Positions 3,503 to 41,065 of a DNA stretch of 41,065 nucleotides are shown piece after piece. Position 1 is the first letter of the stretch. Each line of letters opens with the position of its first letter. The stretch spans positions 1-41,065 of the forward strand of contig NZER01000146.1 of assembly GCA_002690445.1 (NCBI GenBank). Direction: 5' to 3'. A model generated the notes under the pieces. It worked only from the letters and a program-made list of their open reading frames with translations, did not search any database and had not been told where the DNA came from. The stretch is from Candidatus Pacearchaeota archaeon. GTDB lineage: Archaea; Nanoarchaeota; Nanoarchaeia; Pacearchaeales; GW2011-AR1. The translations under genes and the position numbers were made by a program.

Positions 3503-3710
3503 GCACTAATCGGTAGTGTTTAGTCTTTCGTACGAAGGGCATCATTCGACAATACTCGCTTATAGACATAGCTCCTCTTCGGAGGAATCGAGATCGATGC
3601 CTCGGTCTCAAGGTCTCTAAAAGGATCAACTTCTTAGAAGTTCACTGAAAGGTGTTGTGCCTCGGGACGGGGGCTGTGTCCGTAAGCGGGTTTTGTTTTA
3701 TCATAAAACC
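3503..3710 (+). ncRNA. Structured 5' leader of the nucleotidyltransferase gene
   Basis: About 200 bases without a credible gene hold several hairpins: CACTA/TAGTG near 3506-3520, the palindrome TTCGTACGAA, TCCTC-TTCG-GAGGA with a UUCG tetraloop near 3573-3586, AACTTC-TTA-GAAGTT near 3629-3643, and GTTTTA-TCA-TAAAAC (3695-3709) ending one base before ATG 3711. The last could hide or expose the start codon. It may be a regulatory leader or a separate small RNA; no known riboswitch class is recognised. Confidence 0.4.
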
Positions 3711-4406
3711 ATGAAAGGAATCATCTTAGCAGGAGGCACTGGGTCTCGTCTCAGGCCATTAACCTCTGTCACTAATAAGCATCTCGTGGCTGTATATAAC
3801 AAGCCGATGATTGACTATCCTCTCGGTACTTTAATATCTATGGGAATAGGCGACATTTTAATTATTTCAGGACGAGAACATGTCGGACACTTCATCGAAT
3901 ATCTAGGGTCGGGAGAAAGGTATAATGCTCAATTAACATATCGAGTTCAAGAAGAATCTGGAGGTATTGCTCAAGCCCTGTCTTTGGCTAGGAACTTTAT
4001 CGGGCAAGATAATATGACAGTTATTCTAGGAGACAATATCTTTGAGGATAGTTTCACCTCAACTTTCAATGGAGGTAGCCGAGTTTTTTTAAAGAAAGTC
4101 CCCGACCCTGAAAGATTCGGGGTAGTCAGACTAGAGGGAAATAAAATAACTGAGATCATTGAAAAGCCGAATGATCCTCCCTCTGATTACGCAGTCACAG
4201 GTCTTTATCAATATGATGCTAACGTGTTTGATATTATTGAAAGTCTCAAACCGTCTGATCGAGGAGAGTTAGAGATCACCGATGTTAATAACGTATATAT
4301 TAAAATAGGATTAATGAAGGCTGAGTTTGTGAGAGGGTTCTGGTCTGATGCTGGTACTTTTGAATCGTTAGCTAAAACCACAAGATGGCTACACAAGACC
4401 TGTTGA
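3711..4406 (+). CDS. Sugar-1-phosphate nucleotidyltransferase, RmlA-like
   Basis: I choose ATG 3711, which gives 231 residues beginning directly with the signature GGTGSRLRPLT-x4-K of nucleotidylyltransferases (residues 7-22). Further family marks are a GD near the sugar site (LGDN), IEKP near residue 150 and WSDAGT near the C-terminus. It is close to glucose-1-phosphate thymidylyltransferase, which makes dTDP-glucose, but shorter than the usual about 290 residues at its C-terminus. It stands 5 kb from the main sugar cassette, behind its own promoter and structured leader. It could supply an activated sugar for the glycosyltransferases; the nucleotide and sugar used cannot be read from sequence alone. 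Confidence 0.85.
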   Translation: MKGIILAGGTGSRLRPLTSVTNKHLVAVYNKPMIDYPLGTLISMGIGDILIISGREHVGHFIEYLGSGERYNAQLTYRVQEESGGIAQALSLARNFIGQDNMTVILGDNIFEDSFTSTFNGGSRVFLKKVPDPERFGVVRLEGNKITEIIEKPNDPPSDYAVTGLYQYDANVFDIIESLKPSDRGELEITDVNNVYIKIGLMKAEFVRGFWSDAGTFESLAKTTRWLHKTC

Positions 4407-4415
4407 TAACTTTTG

Positions 4416-4444
4416 TTGACAGACCGATTTTATTTTTTTACACT
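4416..4444 (+). promoter_or_regulatory. Strong promoter for the large noncoding region
   Basis: A perfect -35 TTGACA (4416-4421), 17 bases, and -10 TACACT (4439-4444) predict a start near 4451. Nothing that looks like a protein gene lies downstream for 1.1 kb. Confidence 0.75.
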
Positions 4445-4458
4445 TGTCTTAACACACT

Positions 4459-4497
4459 GATTCCGGCAGTCTTAAAGAAAGAGCTCCCGCCGGAATC
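4459..4497 (+). promoter_or_regulatory. Antiterminator-like helix overlapping the terminator
   Basis: GATTCCGGC (4459-4467) is perfectly complementary to GCCGGAATC (4489-4497). The second arm covers the loop and inner base pair of the terminator hairpin at 4479-4507, so the two structures cannot both form. This is the classic layout of an attenuator. Confidence 0.6.
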
Positions 4498-4509
4498 GGG
4501 AGTTCTTTT
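4479..4509 (+). terminator. Intrinsic terminator, possibly conditional
   Basis: An 11-bp stem with one G-U pair (4479-4489 with 4497-4507) and a 7-base loop is followed by TTTTA. It would end readthrough from the nucleotidyltransferase gene and also stop most transcripts from the 4416 promoter unless the competing upstream helix forms. Confidence 0.75.
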
Positions 4510-5581
4510 ATAAGTTAGTGGCTATCGCCCCACTTCGGTGGGGATTGAGGGATGAAGCTTACCGGCTCCATTCTCCCAAAACTCCAGTCCTTCGGGATTG
4601 GGGCGATGGTCATTAGTGAATTAGCAGTTGGGGTGGCGGACAGTGAGCCGTATGCCAGTTGTCAAAGCAGCGAAGTTGTGACGGATAGCACGACATATCC
4701 TAGGATAAGGCTGCTACGAGGCTTATACATTGGTCTATCCCGAAACCGGGTGTCTGCAAGTCAAACCTTGCCCCCAACTTCTAGTTCATTACAGGCAGAG
4801 ATGGCGGAATAGGTAGACGCTCACGATGGGAACGTGCTTGTGGTTATTCCATCTAGACACACGAGACATGCAAGGTGACTATACGAGTATTTACTAGATA
4901 AATTGAGGTGGCCGCCCCTAACTGGGGCAAATCCTGAAAAGGATTGTTATTCTAGGCTCTATGTGGCCTCATCTCGGCAAATCCTTGCTCTCTGCCTATA
5001 GTGAATTAGTTATCTGGAGTAACGGCGGAATCTTATCTATTCACAACATTCTCTTAATTGAGAGACTTGGGTAAGAAACCGATACCCTACCCTGGATGAA
5101 CTCAAGGTTGATGCCTTGAGATCTGGAGATAAGGCTGACTAACCTTTAACATTGAGAAAATCATAGTTAACAATATTCTTCTTTTTCATTGTTGGTCTTA
5201 TCTTCAGGTCTCAGAGTGTTATTGGTTAACATATGCTAACTTGATGACTAGAGGTTAACAGTCGTTAACTAGTGGTGAATTGAGAGGAGGGGATGGGGAT
5301 AGTTAATCTAAGTAACTTGATGTTTGCACGTCTTAGATGGCGAAGAACAAGGGATCAAGCATGACCTTGTTTCCCGAACGCCCTCTCCTCTCAGAGCATC
5401 ATAGCTCTAACCCCGAGGGTAGCTGAACAGGGGTATATAAAAGCTGTCAGCAGGTCTGGCTTGTCAGGGAGCGAATAATCCTGATCCAACTCAACGGTGA
5501 GAACCGGACTCCTATCTCCTTAACTTATTAATCTAAGGGGGTAGGGGGTCATATCCAATCTAACAATGAGTAACTATATAT

Positions 5582-5902
5582 ATGAGTAAATTAAATAAGT
5601 TATCTAATAATGTCACAGAGAAAGAAGTTCAAGAGTATTTCCACGATTTGGGATATCATTCAATTAAGAGGGGTTGGCCCGATTTCTGTTTCTTCAAGGG
5701 CAAGGATATTATCTTCGTTGAAGTTAAGAGGTCAGACCAAAACACTATTAAAAGTCATCAAAGAAGAATAAAGAATATATTCAAAAAATTAGGTTTAGAC
5801 TATCGGGTCGCTTTCGGAATGAAAGATGGAAAACCTGATTATAAGCAAAGAGCTGGATTAAATAGACACCTAATAGATACAAAGGATATGGGACTCGTCT
5901 AA
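5582..5902 (+). CDS. VRR-NUC domain nuclease
   Basis: The 106-residue protein is a stand-alone VRR-NUC domain of the PD-(D/E)xK superfamily. The active site reads GWPDF (Asp34), then VEVK (Glu47, Lys49), followed by the conserved Gln60 in the KSHQRR segment. Such minimal enzymes in phages are structure-specific or Holliday-junction-type nucleases used in recombination or genome processing. The length fits a single domain. It is the first protein gene after the large RNA region and has no Shine-Dalgarno sequence (an AT-rich leader precedes ATG 5582). Confidence 0.85.
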   Translation: MSKLNKLSNNVTEKEVQEYFHDLGYHSIKRGWPDFCFFKGKDIIFVEVKRSDQNTIKSHQRRIKNIFKKLGLDYRVAFGMKDGKPDYKQRAGLNRHLIDTKDMGLV

Positions 5903-10616: not shown

Positions 10617-11129
10617 ATGATGTCACATACAAATACACAGAGGCACAATAGCCGAGCCCGCTTTTTCCAAGGTCTAATAAAATTAGCGGAAAAAGATAGC
10701 AGCATCATATTACTCACGAACGACGTGGGTTATTCGTTCGTAGAAAAATTTGCCCAACTTTATCCCAAGCAGTTCCTTAACTGTGGAATCATGGAACAGA
10801 CAATCACCGGCATAGCGGCAGGATTAGCCCTGGCAGGCAAGAAGCCTTACTACTACAGCATGATCCCCTTTGTAATCATGAGGAACTATGAGCAACTTAG
10901 GAACGATATTCTCCTTCAAGGCCTGAACGTTAAACTAGTAGCTGTGCAAGGTGGAGAGTCATATAAGTTCCTCGGTGAGAGCCATAATATGGTCTGTGAT
11001 GATGAAGACATAAAACTTCTGACTCACCTACCGGTAGATATTTATATACCAGGAGAAGAAGGTGACGTCGTTGAGAAGACAGTCGAGGCGACATACAACA
11101 TCCAGAAACCTGCATATATCAGACTGTGA
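10617..11129 (+). CDS. Transketolase pyrimidine-binding subunit, short form
   Basis: The 170-residue protein matches the Pyr domain of transketolase-type enzymes, with IMEQTITGIAAGLALAGKKP carrying the catalytic Glu that activates ThDP, and a VQGGESY segment. Full C-terminal subunits have about 310 residues, including a last Rossmann-like domain that is entirely absent here. It would pair with the upstream PP subunit to form the active site. ATG 10617 or 10620 could be the start. Its TGA stop overlaps the GTG start of the dehydratase gene. Confidence 0.8.
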   Translation: MMSHTNTQRHNSRARFFQGLIKLAEKDSSIILLTNDVGYSFVEKFAQLYPKQFLNCGIMEQTITGIAAGLALAGKKPYYYSMIPFVIMRNYEQLRNDILLQGLNVKLVAVQGGESYKFLGESHNMVCDDEDIKLLTHLPVDIYIPGEEGDVVEKTVEATYNIQKPAYIRL

Positions 11130-11947
11130 TTAAAAACAAGAGAATCTTAGTCACCGGAGCATCAGGCTCTATAGGGTCCGAACTTTGTTCTCAGTTATCT
11201 AAAAGAAACAAGGTCTTTGGATTAGACATCAACGAGATGGAGATGCACCGACTGAAGAGAGACCTAGGGATAGCAGGAAGAGTTGGTGACATCAGGAACA
11301 GAGAGACCTTAAGGAATGTATTCGATGACTTTAAGCCGGAGGTTGTGTTTCATGCCGCAGCATATAAAAGCGTTGATATGATGGAGTACGTCCCAGAGGA
11401 GGCCATCAGCACCAACGTACTTGGAACCCTCAACGTCCTAGACTACTCTAAGATATACGAGGTAGACAGGTTTGTGTTCATCAGCACAGACAAGGTAGTC
11501 AACGCCAAGTCCATTATGGGTAAGACCAAGAGCTTAGGTGAGACCATGACGGTCAACTCCGGGAAGGGATACATGGCAGTTAGATTCGGTAACGTGATAG
11601 GGAGTAGAGGTAGCCTGATGGAGATATGGGAGAACCAGATAAACAGCGGAGGCCCACTAACAATCACTGATGAGAGAATGGAGAGATTCTTTATGACAAT
11701 CCCTGAAGCAGTAGGGCTAGTAACTAAAGCAGCTGAGATTGGTAAGGGAGGTGAGATCATATGCTTTGAGATGGGAAAACCGGTTAGTATCCTAGAGCTA
11801 GCCAAGGAGATTATTAATAAACTAGGAAGGAATACACCAATAGAGGTCATTGGCAATAGAGGAGGTGAGGTCCTCAAAGAAGAGCTAATGACAGTCGAAG
11901 AACAGAAAGTCGCAGTTAAAAAAGGAGACTATTACATAATAAAATGA
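11126..11947 (+). CDS. Nucleotide-sugar 4,6-dehydratase, FlaA1/CapD type
   Basis: The 273-residue extended SDR starts at GTG 11126, overlapping the previous stop. It has the Rossmann motif TGASGSIG (about 10-17), the family block HAAAYKSVDMMEYVPEEAI and the catalytic region FISTDKVV...MGKTKSLGE, in which the usual SDR Tyr is Met, as in FlaA1, PglF and CapD dehydratases. These convert UDP-GlcNAc to UDP-4-keto-6-deoxy sugars, some with C5 inversion. The membrane half found in PglF/WbpM is absent, so it is the soluble type. It feeds surface sugar synthesis together with the neighbouring aminotransferase. Confidence 0.85.
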   Translation: MIKNKRILVTGASGSIGSELCSQLSKRNKVFGLDINEMEMHRLKRDLGIAGRVGDIRNRETLRNVFDDFKPEVVFHAAAYKSVDMMEYVPEEAISTNVLGTLNVLDYSKIYEVDRFVFISTDKVVNAKSIMGKTKSLGETMTVNSGKGYMAVRFGNVIGSRGSLMEIWENQINSGGPLTITDERMERFFMTIPEAVGLVTKAAEIGKGGEIICFEMGKPVSILELAKEIINKLGRNTPIEVIGNRGGEVLKEELMTVEEQKVAVKKGDYYIIK

Positions 11948-13035
11948 AAGTACCATTTGTAGATTTTAAAAAGAGTTACGCTAAGTTACGCAGTGAAATG
12001 CTACCAGCAATAGATAGGGTATTAGGAGAGGGCAACTTAATACTAAGAGAAGACGTTGAGGAGTTTGAGGAGAACCTAGCCAAATACGTCGGCACTAGAT
12101 ACGCAGTCGGAGTCAATTCAGGGACAGACGCTCTGTATTTAGCACTTAGAGCCGCTGGAGTTAGAGAGGGAGACGAGGTTATAACTGTCTCTCATACCTT
12201 CATTGCCACAATAGAAGCTATTGTCAGGGTAGGAGCTAAGCCAGTCCTAGTAGATATAGGAGAGGACTACCTCATGGATGTAGCTCAGGTCGCGTCACTT
12301 ATAACCGATAGGACTAGAGCGATCATCCCTGTTCACCTATCCGGTGATGTCTGTGATATGGCAGCCCTATTCCTAGTAGCAGCTCAGGCAGAGCACACTA
12401 TTCATATCATTGAAGATTCGGCTCAGGCACTAGGAGCCAAGTCAAAGGAGAGCAAAGCTGGTTCTATGGGACTAGCCGGCTGCTTCAGCTTCTATCCTGC
12501 GAAACTCCTTGGGGGCTACGGAGATGGAGGAGCAATCACCACTAACAGTCTCAAGATGTACGAGGAGATCAAGAAGTTAAGAAACCACTACTACATAGGC
12601 AAAGGAACTAAGGATGATATGGTGAAATTCGGAGTCAATAGCCGCTTGGATAACATCCATGCCGCGGCCCTTAACATAAAGCTTAAACACATCGACGACT
12701 ATATCGAACGACGCAAAGAGATAGCTCGAATGTATGACGAGGGACTTAAATCGATAGCACATCTTGTCCTGCCAATAGAAAGAGGGGTCTATCAAGATTA
12801 CGTTGTTCGTGCTGAAGACAGAGACGAGCTTAGAGACTTTCTAACTAAAGAAGGGGTTGAAACTCTAGGTGGCGATATAGTTCCTAATCATCTATACAAA
12901 GGCCTTAACCTAGACTTTGAGTTGCCTAATACAGAGAAATACACAGCAGAGTTCCTAAGACTACCCTGCAACCCTGAATTAGAGAATGAAGAGGTGAACT
13001 ACGTTATAGACAGAATCAAACTGTTCTATGAATAA
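11944..13035 (+). CDS. DegT/DnrJ/EryC1 sugar aminotransferase (WbpE-like)
   Basis: The 363-residue PLP enzyme has the family's full length. Visible marks are NSGTDALYLAL (57-69), EDSAQALGA with the PLP-contacting Asp158, and the Schiff-base lysine in SFYPAKLLGGYGDGG (Lys187). It transfers an amino group from glutamate to a keto sugar nucleotide. Next to a Gfo/Idh/MocA dehydrogenase, and with a WbpD-like acetyltransferase encoded elsewhere in the window, it most resembles WbpE/WlbC, which aminates the 3-keto position of UDP-GlcNAc-uronic acid. It overlaps both neighbours by 4-8 bases. Confidence 0.9.
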   Translation: MKVPFVDFKKSYAKLRSEMLPAIDRVLGEGNLILREDVEEFEENLAKYVGTRYAVGVNSGTDALYLALRAAGVREGDEVITVSHTFIATIEAIVRVGAKPVLVDIGEDYLMDVAQVASLITDRTRAIIPVHLSGDVCDMAALFLVAAQAEHTIHIIEDSAQALGAKSKESKAGSMGLAGCFSFYPAKLLGGYGDGGAITTNSLKMYEEIKKLRNHYYIGKGTKDDMVKFGVNSRLDNIHAAALNIKLKHIDDYIERRKEIARMYDEGLKSIAHLVLPIERGVYQDYVVRAEDRDELRDFLTKEGVETLGGDIVPNHLYKGLNLDFELPNTEKYTAEFLRLPCNPELENEEVNYVIDRIKLFYE

Positions 13036-13843
13036 ATGGGCTGTTATTGGATTGGGATTTATCTCGCCCCGACATCTTAAGGCTATTAAATGGATTGGCG
13101 ACGAGATTTTGATTGGCTTTGACAAAGAGACAGAATGGGAACAGATGATCGAGGGCAACCTATGGAAAAAGGTCACTCATGTGGCGATATGTACTCCCAA
13201 CTTCCTTCATTACAGGATGTGTGAAGCAATGAAAGACAAGGTGGTTCTCTGTGAGAAACCTCTAACACTGACCAGTGAGGAGGCATTAAAGCTACCTGAC
13301 AATGTCTTCACAGTCCTTCAGCTGAGGCATAACAAAGAGATTGTAGCTCTTAAGAGCAAACTCGACGCAGAACCAGAGGGAACCAAACACTCAGGGAAGA
13401 TGACTGTAATCGTAAAGAGGGATAAAGAATACTGGAAAGGATGGAAGGGCGATGAGAGTAAGTCAGGAGGCATACTTTTCAATCTAGGCATTCATTACTT
13501 CGATCTACTCATCCATCTCTTCGGGGATAAGTATAAGATCAAGAAGTCCGACCAACTTTTTTCTATAAAAAATTGTTTTCTACCTGATCCTCCCCTCACC
13601 ATAGCTTCTGGAACGATAGATTTTGATGGCAATATTTTTGATTATCATCTAGCTATTAGAGATACGGACGATCAACAGGACAGGAGACTAGAGATAGATG
13701 GAAAGGAAATTAGTCTATCTAAAAAGGACAACCTATCATTCGAGGACTTGCACAAGGACGTATACATGAATCTTAAGCACGGAGTCGGTGTCAAACCACA
13801 GGAAGCAGCTAAGTCGATAAGACTAATAGAAAAGCTAAGATGA
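13028..13843 (+). CDS. Gfo/Idh/MocA oxidoreductase (WbpB/WlbA-like)
   Basis: The 271-residue protein has an N-terminal Rossmann motif (VIGLGFISPRH, 6-16), ICTPNFLH and the family hallmark CEKPLT (75-80), followed by an alpha/beta domain with LFNLGIHYFDLL. It is shorter than typical members (about 310-350). With the adjacent aminotransferase it fits the 3-dehydrogenase step on UDP-GlcNAc-uronic acid that precedes amination in the WbpB-WbpE pair. It overlaps the next gene by 4 bases. The substrate is inferred from gene context. Confidence 0.8.
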   Translation: MNKWAVIGLGFISPRHLKAIKWIGDEILIGFDKETEWEQMIEGNLWKKVTHVAICTPNFLHYRMCEAMKDKVVLCEKPLTLTSEEALKLPDNVFTVLQLRHNKEIVALKSKLDAEPEGTKHSGKMTVIVKRDKEYWKGWKGDESKSGGILFNLGIHYFDLLIHLFGDKYKIKKSDQLFSIKNCFLPDPPLTIASGTIDFDGNIFDYHLAIRDTDDQQDRRLEIDGKEISLSKKDNLSFEDLHKDVYMNLKHGVGVKPQEAAKSIRLIEKLR

Positions 13844-14877
13844 TATGTAACCGCTGTGTTCTTGATACCGTAGAGGTTCCAGACATTTACTTTGATTATG
13901 AAGGAATCTGTAACTACTGCAGGAAGTTTGAGAAGGATGAGTTCGACCGGACAGTAGAGAAGAACAACCTTCAGTGGGTGTATCACAACCTAAGGAAGAG
14001 GAAAGGTAAATATCAGTGCCTTCTAGGATTAAGTGGCGGAGTAGACTCAAGCATGTGTCTGCGCTATCTAATAGAGAATGGAATAAAACCATTAACATAC
14101 AGTATCGATAACGGATGGAATACCGAGGCCAGTGATGAGAACATCATGAGGCTGGTGGAAGGAATGAAAGTCCCCTTCTTCAGATATACAATCGACATCG
14201 ACAAGTTTAAGAACCTCCAAGATGCTTTCATACAATCAGGTACCAAGAACCTAGAGATTCCAACAGATCACATCCTAATGGCCTCGACCTATGAGATGGC
14301 CCTCAAGCATGGAATCAAGGATATCATCAGCGGCGGTAATCTAGCGACAGAAGGGATACTACCCAAGAGCTATGGATATCAGGCCAGAGACCTCAAGCAT
14401 CTCAAGGCTGTGTATAAACAATTCAAGGGTGAGAAGCTAACCGGACTGCCGATGATATCGTTGCCTAAGTATCTGTACAGCCGATTCGTGAAGGGTATTA
14501 GGATAACTAACCTCCTCGACTATTATGAATACGACAGAGGTGAAGCCATCAAACTCCTAGAGGAGAAGTACGGATACACAGACTATGGACTGAAGCATGA
14601 AGAGTCTAACTTCACCAAATGGTTCCAGAACTTTTACCTTCCAGCTAAGTTCAATCTCGATAAGCGTAAGCCTCACTTCTCTTCGCTAATCAACTCGGGA
14701 CAGATGAAAAGAGAGGACGCACTTAAGCAATTAGCTCAGTTCCCTACCTTTGACAGCATGGGGAACGAAGAAAAAGTGTTAAAATATACTAAGAGGGACT
14801 ATAAAGAATATCCCAATAACGAAAAGCTCTGGGACTTCCTCAGTAAGGTATATGCGAATCTTGTCAAGCGAAAATGA
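13840..14877 (+). CDS. N-acetyl sugar amidotransferase (WbpG-like)
   Basis: The 345-residue protein has paired cysteines at 3, 6, 24 and 27 (a zinc site typical of this family) and the ATP-pyrophosphatase loop LSGGVDSS (64-71). WbpG/PseA-type enzymes use ATP to activate a sugar carboxyl or acetamido group and put in ammonia, giving amidino or carboxamide sugars in O-antigens. Ammonia comes from a partner glutaminase, encoded by the next gene with a 26-base overlap. The usual third component, the HisF2-like channel protein, is absent from the window. Confidence 0.85.
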   Translation: MICNRCVLDTVEVPDIYFDYEGICNYCRKFEKDEFDRTVEKNNLQWVYHNLRKRKGKYQCLLGLSGGVDSSMCLRYLIENGIKPLTYSIDNGWNTEASDENIMRLVEGMKVPFFRYTIDIDKFKNLQDAFIQSGTKNLEIPTDHILMASTYEMALKHGIKDIISGGNLATEGILPKSYGYQARDLKHLKAVYKQFKGEKLTGLPMISLPKYLYSRFVKGIRITNLLDYYEYDRGEAIKLLEEKYGYTDYGLKHEESNFTKWFQNFYLPAKFNLDKRKPHFSSLINSGQMKREDALKQLAQFPTFDSMGNEEKVLKYTKRDYKEYPNNEKLWDFLSKVYANLVKRK

Positions 14878-40892: not shown

Positions 40893-40970
40893 ATGAACAG
40901 CAAAAAGAAGCCAAGTATCTCAAAAAGGTACAGAATGAAACCTGAAATATCCATAATACCTAAACTATAG
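40893..40970 (+). CDS. 25-residue basic peptide
   Basis: A short frame from ATG 40893 encodes a Lys/Arg-rich peptide (MNSKKKPSISKRYRMKPEI...). Its end overlaps the -10 of the leftward promoter. It resembles the tiny basic peptides at 31089-31453 in composition. Coding status is uncertain. Confidence 0.3.
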   Translation: MNSKKKPSISKRYRMKPEISIIPKL

Positions 40971-40992
40971 CATGGTACACAGCATTTGTCAA
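40964..40992 (-). promoter_or_regulatory. Second copy of the leftward promoter
   Basis: On the minus strand: TTGACA (40987-40992), 17 bases, TATAGT (40964-40969), again preceded by TGC. It differs from the copy at 387-415 at four positions (three in the spacer, one in the -10), keeping both boxes and their spacing. It would transcribe against the end of the internal-protein gene. Confidence 0.6.
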
Positions 40993-41065
40993 TAGATATG
41001 AAAGAATTACGTCAAGAGATTAAAGAAATAAAAGATATGGTCGGAAATCATCTCACCGATGTCGC
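40983..41065 (+). repeat. 83-base terminal repeat of positions 406-488
   Basis: The last 83 bases are identical to 406-488. Upstream of this point the two copies still resemble each other for about 30 bases with scattered changes and then diverge. The likely reading is the closing overlap of a circular or permuted genome with a variant sequence at the left end. Confidence 0.85.
40998..41065 (+). CDS. 5' part of the coiled-coil membrane lysis gene (repeat copy)
   Basis: The first 68 bases of the gene at 421 occur again and run off the window edge. This is the same gene if the molecule is circular; otherwise it would be a second copy. Confidence 0.7.
   Translation, partial: MKELRQEIKEIKDMVGNHLTDV

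Follow-up and report, generated by a model that had tools for sequence, protein, structure and literature searches.

A predicted phage RNA built on a tRNA chassis, with a variable arm in place of the anticodon arm, and its relatives in other phages

We know of no family that combines a tRNA chassis with exchanged arms. In the tRNA-like structures of plant RNA viruses a pseudoknot lies in the acceptor, in tmRNA a tRNA body is combined with pseudoknots, and phage-made mimics of type III antitoxins exist. Ordered homo-oligomeric assembly is characteristic of GOLLD, ROOL and OLE. GOLLD and ROOL are large structured noncoding stretches of phages, often near tRNA islands and of unknown function (PMC12286853). 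Host factors that bind tRNA, RNase P among them, can be engaged through viral mimicry of tRNA (PMC4810234).

The alignments described below show that positions 4792-4998 of the window (the whole stretch of 41,065 nucleotides that was analysed) encode a predicted phage RNA on a tRNA chassis, in which the acceptor helix, a tRNA-Leu-like D-arm and the T-stem are kept, and a variable arm, with a helix in a constant position, stands where the anticodon arm would be. Its relatives form two types, A and B, and in type B, to which the window element belongs, the alignments show a predicted second variable domain inserted in the T-loop. Acceptor, D-stem and T-stem pairing are present in both types. With tRNA-Leu the elements share the D-arm sequence, the D- and T-stems and, in type A, an acceptor of 7 bp, and R1, a covariance model with the window sequence in its seed, gives tRNA-Leu 30.6-39.6 bits; they differ from it in having a variable arm, often with a predicted pseudoknot, and no anticodon arm, a 6-bp T-stem, and a T-loop that reads UGCAAAU or is opened by an insert. 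From GOLLD and ROOL they differ in the absence of a covariance-model match and in consisting of a tRNA-like module of about 110-250 nt. As in the tRNA-like structures of plant RNA viruses, a virus mimics tRNA (PMC4810234), but the elements stand in DNA phages and at an internal position, join a chassis to an exchangeable arm, and have their predicted pseudoknot in the anticodon position. From tmRNA they are set apart by a true D-stem and by the absence of a tmRNA match.

The element lies in a stretch, 4455-5575, that is without genes and folds far above chance as measured by dinucleotide shuffles. An earlier note on this DNA had described a gene-free, helix-rich, structured noncoding region, and this description is borne out by the analysis. 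Nowhere else in the window does a segment as long as 4407-5581 (1175 bp) lack ORFs of at least 90 aa on both strands, and an ORF of 86 aa within it (4552-4812) matched no Pfam or PHROGs family. The sense strand has a minimum free energy of -399.2 kcal/mol, compared with -339.5 ± 9.0 kcal/mol for 60 dinucleotide shuffles (z -6.7, best shuffle -364.1), and is favoured over the reverse strand, which reaches -334.3 kcal/mol; in a window-wide scan of 1.1-kb tiles the lowest tile is at 4481, and one domain also shows covariation. UUCG loops, a GAGA loop and three sites of the motif GGCGGA (4635, 4803 and 5024) are present. The promoter that the note called strong agrees with the consensus at 10 of 12 positions. 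By itself, however, this match is weak, given that five promoter-like sites were found in the 1.4 kb scanned against 2.4 expected in shuffles (sd 1.6). Membership in GOLLD, ROOL, OLE or HEARO did not hold: with the Rfam covariance models no family reached its gathering score in the whole window, and a permissive scan of 4200-5900 returned 11 weak matches (best E 0.31), from which these four classes are absent. Among the possibilities then considered (a member of GOLLD or ROOL, an analogue, or an undescribed class), an undescribed class comes closest. The features of the stretch are:

4416-4421 (TTGACA) and 4439-4444 (TACACT), spaced by 17 nt, plus strand: sigma-70-type promoter match facing the region.
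4515-4616, plus strand: domain 1, a hairpin domain from the predicted fold, with an 18-bp closing helix that includes G-U pairs, and with UUCG loops.
4624-4781, plus strand: domain 2, a possible divergent tRNA-like module with acceptor GUUGGGG (4627-4633) / CCCCAAC (4772-4778), UGGCGGA and T-arm GCAAG-UCAAAC-CUUGC; weak R1 match (16.2 bits, E 0.02), D-stem not formed.
4792-4998, plus strand: domain 3, the type B tRNA-like RNA; R1 113.9 bits (its sequence is in the model's seed), covariation, and other members found by nhmmer with the domain alone.
5281-5393, plus strand: domain 5, an H-type pseudoknot (5306-5312/5332-5338 and 5316-5321/5354-5359), its score reached by 1 of 150 shuffles, enclosed by a bulged helix of about 12 bp; a possible further module.

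The R1 score of domain 2 lies under that of true tRNA-Leu genes. In the loci collected, nhmmer with the domains other than domain 3 returned self matches only, against 81 matches for domain 3, which served as positive control. The UGGCGGA at 4802 is the start of the D-arm UGGCGGAAUAGGUAGACGC, and the site at 4634 may, from the weak covariance-model match, be a D-arm start as well; the GGCGGA at 5024 is assigned to no such arm. Clustered structured modules, similar or co-transcribed, probably make up the remainder of the 1.1 kb.

Read by eye, domain 3 has the layout of a tRNA, with an acceptor of 7 bp (GCAGAGA/UCUCUGC), U8, a D-arm that we take to be that of tRNA-Leu, and the T-stem GCAAGG/CCUUGC, and with GACUAUACGAG...CUCG inside the T-loop. 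Its parts are:

4795-4801, plus strand: 5' strand of the acceptor, pairing with 4989-4995 (helix 1); two-sided changes in each of the 10 pairs of the extended helix, 93.0% of cells paired.
4802-4820, plus strand: D-arm with D-stem GCG:CGC, from alignment and covariation.
4821-4867, plus strand: variable arm replacing the anticodon arm, with a possible H-type pseudoknot (4825-4831/4847-4853 and 4837-4842/4860-4865; p = 0.05 with 60 shuffles for the window arm).
4870-4988, plus strand: T-stem GCAAGG (4870-4875) / CCUUGC (4983-4988) around the opened T-loop (helix 3); 100% of cells paired, two-sided changes in 5 of 6 pairs.
4876-4982, plus strand: T-loop, consisting of U, the insert GACUAUA-CGAG (4884-4887)...CUCG (4973-4976), and GCAAAU (helix 4); 96.0% of cells paired, two-sided changes in 4 of 4 pairs.

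Covariation in homologues, which the earlier note had named as the decisive test, is strong for this domain; for the other domains no relatives were found in the loci collected, apart from the weak match of domain 2. In the type B alignment of 56 distinct sequences (A2), 96.3% of the cells are paired compared with 72.6% after shuffling, and two-sided changes occur in 307 cells compared with 80.5, with 20 of the 23 pairs having such changes. When the registers are slid, 39-46% of the cells are paired, every register remaining below 47%. The features with covariation are the acceptor helix, the D-arm, the T-stem and the CGAG:CUCG helix of the insert, the window member being in the seed. Hardly any variation is seen in the D-stem, where a single compensatory change, from C-G to U-A, occurs in L157. 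Beyond the seventh pair of the closing helix the next three are paired in 64, 84 and 91% of the sequences, and for this reason the type B acceptor helix is taken to be about 10 bp long. The insert measures 30-109 nt (median 71), and the window's element, with its T-loop carrying the insert, has no closed 7-nt T-loop. A pairing of GACUAUA with the D-loop AUAG was considered by eye and dropped, given that GACUAUA is unchanged where the D-loop is AAAGG.

The neighbouring VRR-NUC-like gene, as a route to homologues, gave nothing usable in viral contigs or named phages (8 relatives, genomic context absent), and BLASTN of the whole region against named phages gave no match. The terminase led to 63 loci; 44 of the corresponding records were screened in full for similarity to the window DNA, and portions of 12 were retrieved. 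A relative was found in phage record G028 only, and this is the first relative of domain 3. A pattern made from the window and G028 sequences returned three loci (G028, L093 and one chance match), and two further patterns returned 50 (pattern 1) and 31 (pattern 2) loci in viral contigs, with 23 more for pattern 2 in bacterial and archaeal genomes. In 48 of the 50 pattern-1 loci at least 6 of 7 acceptor pairs and 5 of 5 T-stem pairs form, neither pairing being required by the pattern; random cross-pairing of acceptors passes in 198 of 3080 cases, in a test that was free to choose among a few registers. Members make up 22 of the 31 pattern-2 viral loci, 16 by a strict pairing test and six more (L093, L145, L147, L150, L164 and L168) by R1 at E <= 3e-6; the other nine were dropped (L151 with E 0.67, L159 and seven others with no R1 match). 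Two of the 23 genome loci given to R1 are members (L171 and L184). L136 and L137 failed the strict pairing test and yet match R1, while L095 was rejected, being a coding gene with no R1 match. The tRNA-Leu scores quoted above come from four chromosomal stretches called tRNA-Leu by ARAGORN, and the lowest accepted type A members score 43.9-45.1 bits; given this small margin (up to 39.6 versus from 43.9), layout was also used in deciding membership. A 44.7-bit R1 match at L337 140-255 (G052), in which ARAGORN finds no tRNA, reads as a further variant with a short T-loop insert.

Second copies of the element in L097 and L148 have an uninterrupted T-loop, UGCAAAU, and it is from these that the type B insert is placed after the first U of the loop. 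When two type B members were compared by BLASTN with 50,697 named phages, the match covered the acceptor/D-arm end of the query only (best 50 of 120 and best 50 of 122 records), and among the records listed many are annotated as tRNA-Leu and many are without annotation. Eight matched stretches were fetched, of which six are convincing by R1 (45-58 bits) and layout, those of phiJL-1, Satyr, LN34, SPP1, VEsP-1 and phi3T; S-TIP28 and FL-1, at 26 bits, are possible members. Type A elements stand unannotated in SPP1, phi3T, phages of lactic acid bacteria and herelleviral Bacillus phages. A scan of viral contigs found at least 120 loci, which with two named loci that fit the pattern give at least 116 distinct sequences. 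The pattern fixed the D-arm, GGUGCAAAUCC and the T-loop UGCAAAU, so that their constancy in type A is no result, and the arm length of 39-68 nt is a range partly set by it. In the 116 listed, at least 6 of 7 acceptor pairs form in 113, all 4 of 4 T-stem pairs in 105, and both in 104. Acceptor positions 1-7 are paired in 91-99%, positions 8-9 in 59-64% and those beyond in 32-47%; given this sharp drop after pair 7, the type A acceptor helix is 7 bp long. The SPP1 element lies in the head operon, between genes 9 and 11. Directly after it, at L193 1615-1659, a second, shorter unit can be read as tRNA-like, with acceptor ACGGAC/GUCCGU and a T-arm and without a D-arm. In BSP38 (L323 2348-2423), a sequence just upstream of a tRNA-Gln gene can also be read as tRNA-like without a D-arm, with a possible pseudoknot between acceptor and T-arm.

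On the loci of the elements Rfam gave, besides sub-threshold scraps, only tRNAs and a few known RNAs that adjoin the elements; in the loci scanned no tRNA match falls on the elements themselves. ARAGORN called no tRNA in the window and none in the 116 listed type A cores. For tmRNA there is no Rfam or ARAGORN match on the elements, a 13.8-bit scrap falling outside the SPP1 element, and no known antitoxin RNA was matched in them with Rfam. Given that the elements match no Rfam family, no target is suggested. No description of tRNA-chassis RNAs was found in the literature searched, which consisted mostly of open papers. Phage K, a herelleviral phage, has two RNA-seq-supported noncoding RNAs beside tRNA genes, lnc001 and lnc002 (PMC9241854). 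Both were rejected as family members since R1 does not match them. For lnc001 (L327 333-469, minus strand) there is a near-threshold Rfam match to DUF3800-I, with 43.4 bits versus a cut-off of 44.2.

The last helix of the variable arm is firm, judged by its fixed position in the sequences: in 55 of the 91 arms of type A and 26 of the 47 of type B, exactly 2 nt separate the end of the best such helix from the T-stem. Taken alone, this helix reaches p <= 0.05 in 30% of type A and 21% of type B arms. When an H-type pseudoknot is placed in the 2-nt register, 41 of the 91 type A arms and 23 of the 47 type B arms give p <= 0.05, compared with 9-12 of 91 and 4-5 of 47 at control offsets 7-11. Control offsets 3 and 5 also score (35 and 15 of 91 in type A, 26 and 17 of 47 in type B), in part because they overlap with the same helix. 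The crossing stem 1, given stem 2, reaches p <= 0.05 in 9 of 91 type A and 8 of 47 type B arms, which is weakly above chance. These models indicate that an arm pseudoknot is likely in many members, short of all.

For the SPP1 element, together with about 20 nt in front of it, there are matches at 81-84% in herelleviral Bacillus phages (SPG24, Grass, BSP38, SBSphiJ5 and others). The remaining surroundings have no such match, and the downstream DNA resembles that of SPP1-like phages. Matches to the phi3T element lie in another herelleviral set (Goe3, Goe7, Goe17, Goe27, SBSphiJ1-4, 6 and 7, and others; best 25 of 31 records). At two loci taken from each set, the element lies in all four cases between a tRNA-Asn gene plus a short ORF and a tRNA-Gln or tRNA-Met gene. 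When SBSphiJ5 and SBSphiJ1 are compared at one locus, acceptor and T-arm are identical and the 200 nt upstream have 95.5% identity, with 60% identity between the arms, for which random arms give a mean of 55% and a 95th percentile of 64%. Their D-arms agree in 17 of 19 bases, with a compensatory change in the D-stem. The 18 nt after the acceptor are identical and are followed by a second diverged block, after which identity returns to 93-100%, and on the upstream side, at about 1300-1700 of L321, there is a third such stretch; the exchange between these two phages therefore extends beyond the arm. Between SPP1 and SBSphiJ5 the arms are 80% identical, and between phi3T and SBSphiJ1 they are 75% identical, with the 200-nt flanks at chance. 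The SPP1 relative 049ML001 has SPP1 similarity downstream of the element only, and no R1 match. In the largest group of listed loci that share one type A acceptor, 35 of 45 arm pairs are at most 64% identical. At the level of sequence, these comparisons show that a type A arm can be replaced with acceptor and T-arm left unchanged, and that unrelated phages have similar arms.

The explanation to which we lean, with somewhat less than even confidence, is that these are tRNA-chassis RNAs that are released by tRNA enzymes and act in trans, with the arm giving the specificity. The element would be excised from long phage transcripts by host RNase P and tRNase Z, which would take the RNA for a tRNA, and the RNA would be kept stable by its tRNA-like body. 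Once released it would act in trans, the constant body supplying processing, stability or docking to a tRNA-binding partner, and the exchanged arm, in type B also the T-loop domain, binding a target that changes, for instance a defence factor of the host or a rival element. Against this stand the type B acceptor helix of about 10 bp, which is ill-suited to a plain tRNA end, and the near absence of an encoded CCA, given that NCCA follows in the tRNA position in 1 of the 116 listed type A elements. The tRNA-gene context that would favour it is found in some cases, among them L184 and the four herelleviral loci; in the window ARAGORN finds no tRNA. It is a possible, more tentative proposal that phages of many hosts carry modular RNA effectors, with a tRNA mimic as the delivery chassis, swapped pseudoknotted arms as specificity cassettes in an arms race, the T-loop insert as a second variable site and the stretch in the window as an array of modules.

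Both proposals are weakened by the small number of tRNA neighbours and the absence of a strand bias in the folding of the family. A tRNA called by ARAGORN lies no more than 1 kb away for 4 of 55 type B and 21 of the 116 listed type A elements in the DNA collected. Two elements of L184, both supported by R1, abut tRNA genes. The L184 contig, binned as Patescibacteria, carries 23 genes for tRNAs and one for tmRNA within 8 kb, and may be a large phage or other mobile element. In G028 a borderline tRNA-Phe-like gene (L094 329-400, minus strand; Rfam 34 bits, odd D region) lies directly downstream of the type B element, and in the tRNA cluster around the type B element of L103 (999-1607, minus strand) the neighbouring tRNA-like genes have apparently abnormal anticodon arms and normal-looking acceptor, D and T arms. 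The cores fold with a mean z of -2.31 sense and -2.54 antisense in type B, and of -1.57 and -1.72 in type A (60 of the 116 listed), so that the strand bias of the fold is seen in the window only and not in the family cores. The upstream flanks have mean z values of -1.78 (type B) and -1.23 (type A) on the sense strand and of -1.35 and -0.98 on the antisense strand, compared with 0.04 for 36 control windows; as both flank strands exceed the controls, the wider surroundings of the elements tend to be rich in inverted repeats, like those in the window.

The main rival, which we regard as rather unlikely, is that the tRNA-like body punctuates operons in cis, as a processing or regulatory site (cleavage by RNase P or Z, control of translation or termination) with no target in trans. 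It agrees with the orientation of the neighbours at the 55 type B loci, where the nearest ORF of at least 90 aa shares the strand of the element in 35 of 43 downstream and 37 of 46 upstream cases, and with the place of the SPP1 element between genes 9 and 11 of the head operon. The next same-strand ORF starts within 50 nt in 9 of 40 cases, as punctuation would have it, but is more than 150 nt away in 24 of 40. Nor is there a shared neighbour: the matched same-strand proteins are mixed (HNH nucleases, terminase, portal, primase, recombination functions), and no PHROG is matched more than twice, either among the 40 downstream or among the 44 upstream proteins (40 of the 55 loci have a qualifying downstream ORF, and 44 of 46 upstream were used). 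Moreover, a processing site in cis needs no hypervariable, exchanged arms.

These arms, variable, exchangeable and often pseudoknotted, and of 39-68 nt in type A, would also fit a decoy form of the trans-acting effector, in which an arm on a stable tRNA body lures pseudoknot-binding toxins; we hold this to be improbable, with the absence of an Rfam antitoxin RNA match in the elements speaking against it. That the elements are drifting remnants of tRNA-Leu genes that lost the anticodon arm, as the D-arm, the R1 scores of tRNA-Leu and the place of some elements in tRNA clusters might suggest, is hardly credible and largely contradicted by the covariation, since compensatory changes in every helix, the fixed end of the arm helix and arms 75-80% identical in unrelated phages need selection. 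Just as little credit is given to intron-bearing tRNA genes, from which arm and insert would be spliced to leave a normal tRNA: the single place of the insert and the uninterrupted second copies in L097 and L148 fit, but type A, which has no insert, still has no anticodon arm, ARAGORN calls none of the 116 listed cores, and its intron options give nothing in the window at the default threshold and discordant calls at a low one.

If the trans-acting effector is the correct explanation, tRNA mimicry by DNA phages would be widespread, and would have been overlooked because annotation programs look for anticodon arms. In the exchange of arms on a constant chassis, swappable specificity modules would have a counterpart made of RNA, and the family would give a handle on unannotated stretches of phage genomes. 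With the element present in SPP1 and phi3T, this can be tested directly in Bacillus subtilis.

Two further observations concern the window as a whole. Its final 100 bases (40966-41065) repeat 389-488 with 3 mismatches, so that the record is nearly a full genome, about 40.6 kb in size and with a variant junction. The genes at 3657-4406 and 11126-14877 include a nucleotidyltransferase, a nucleotide-sugar epimerase, an aminotransferase and a weakly QueC-like protein, which suggests that the phage modifies sugar-nucleotides or DNA.
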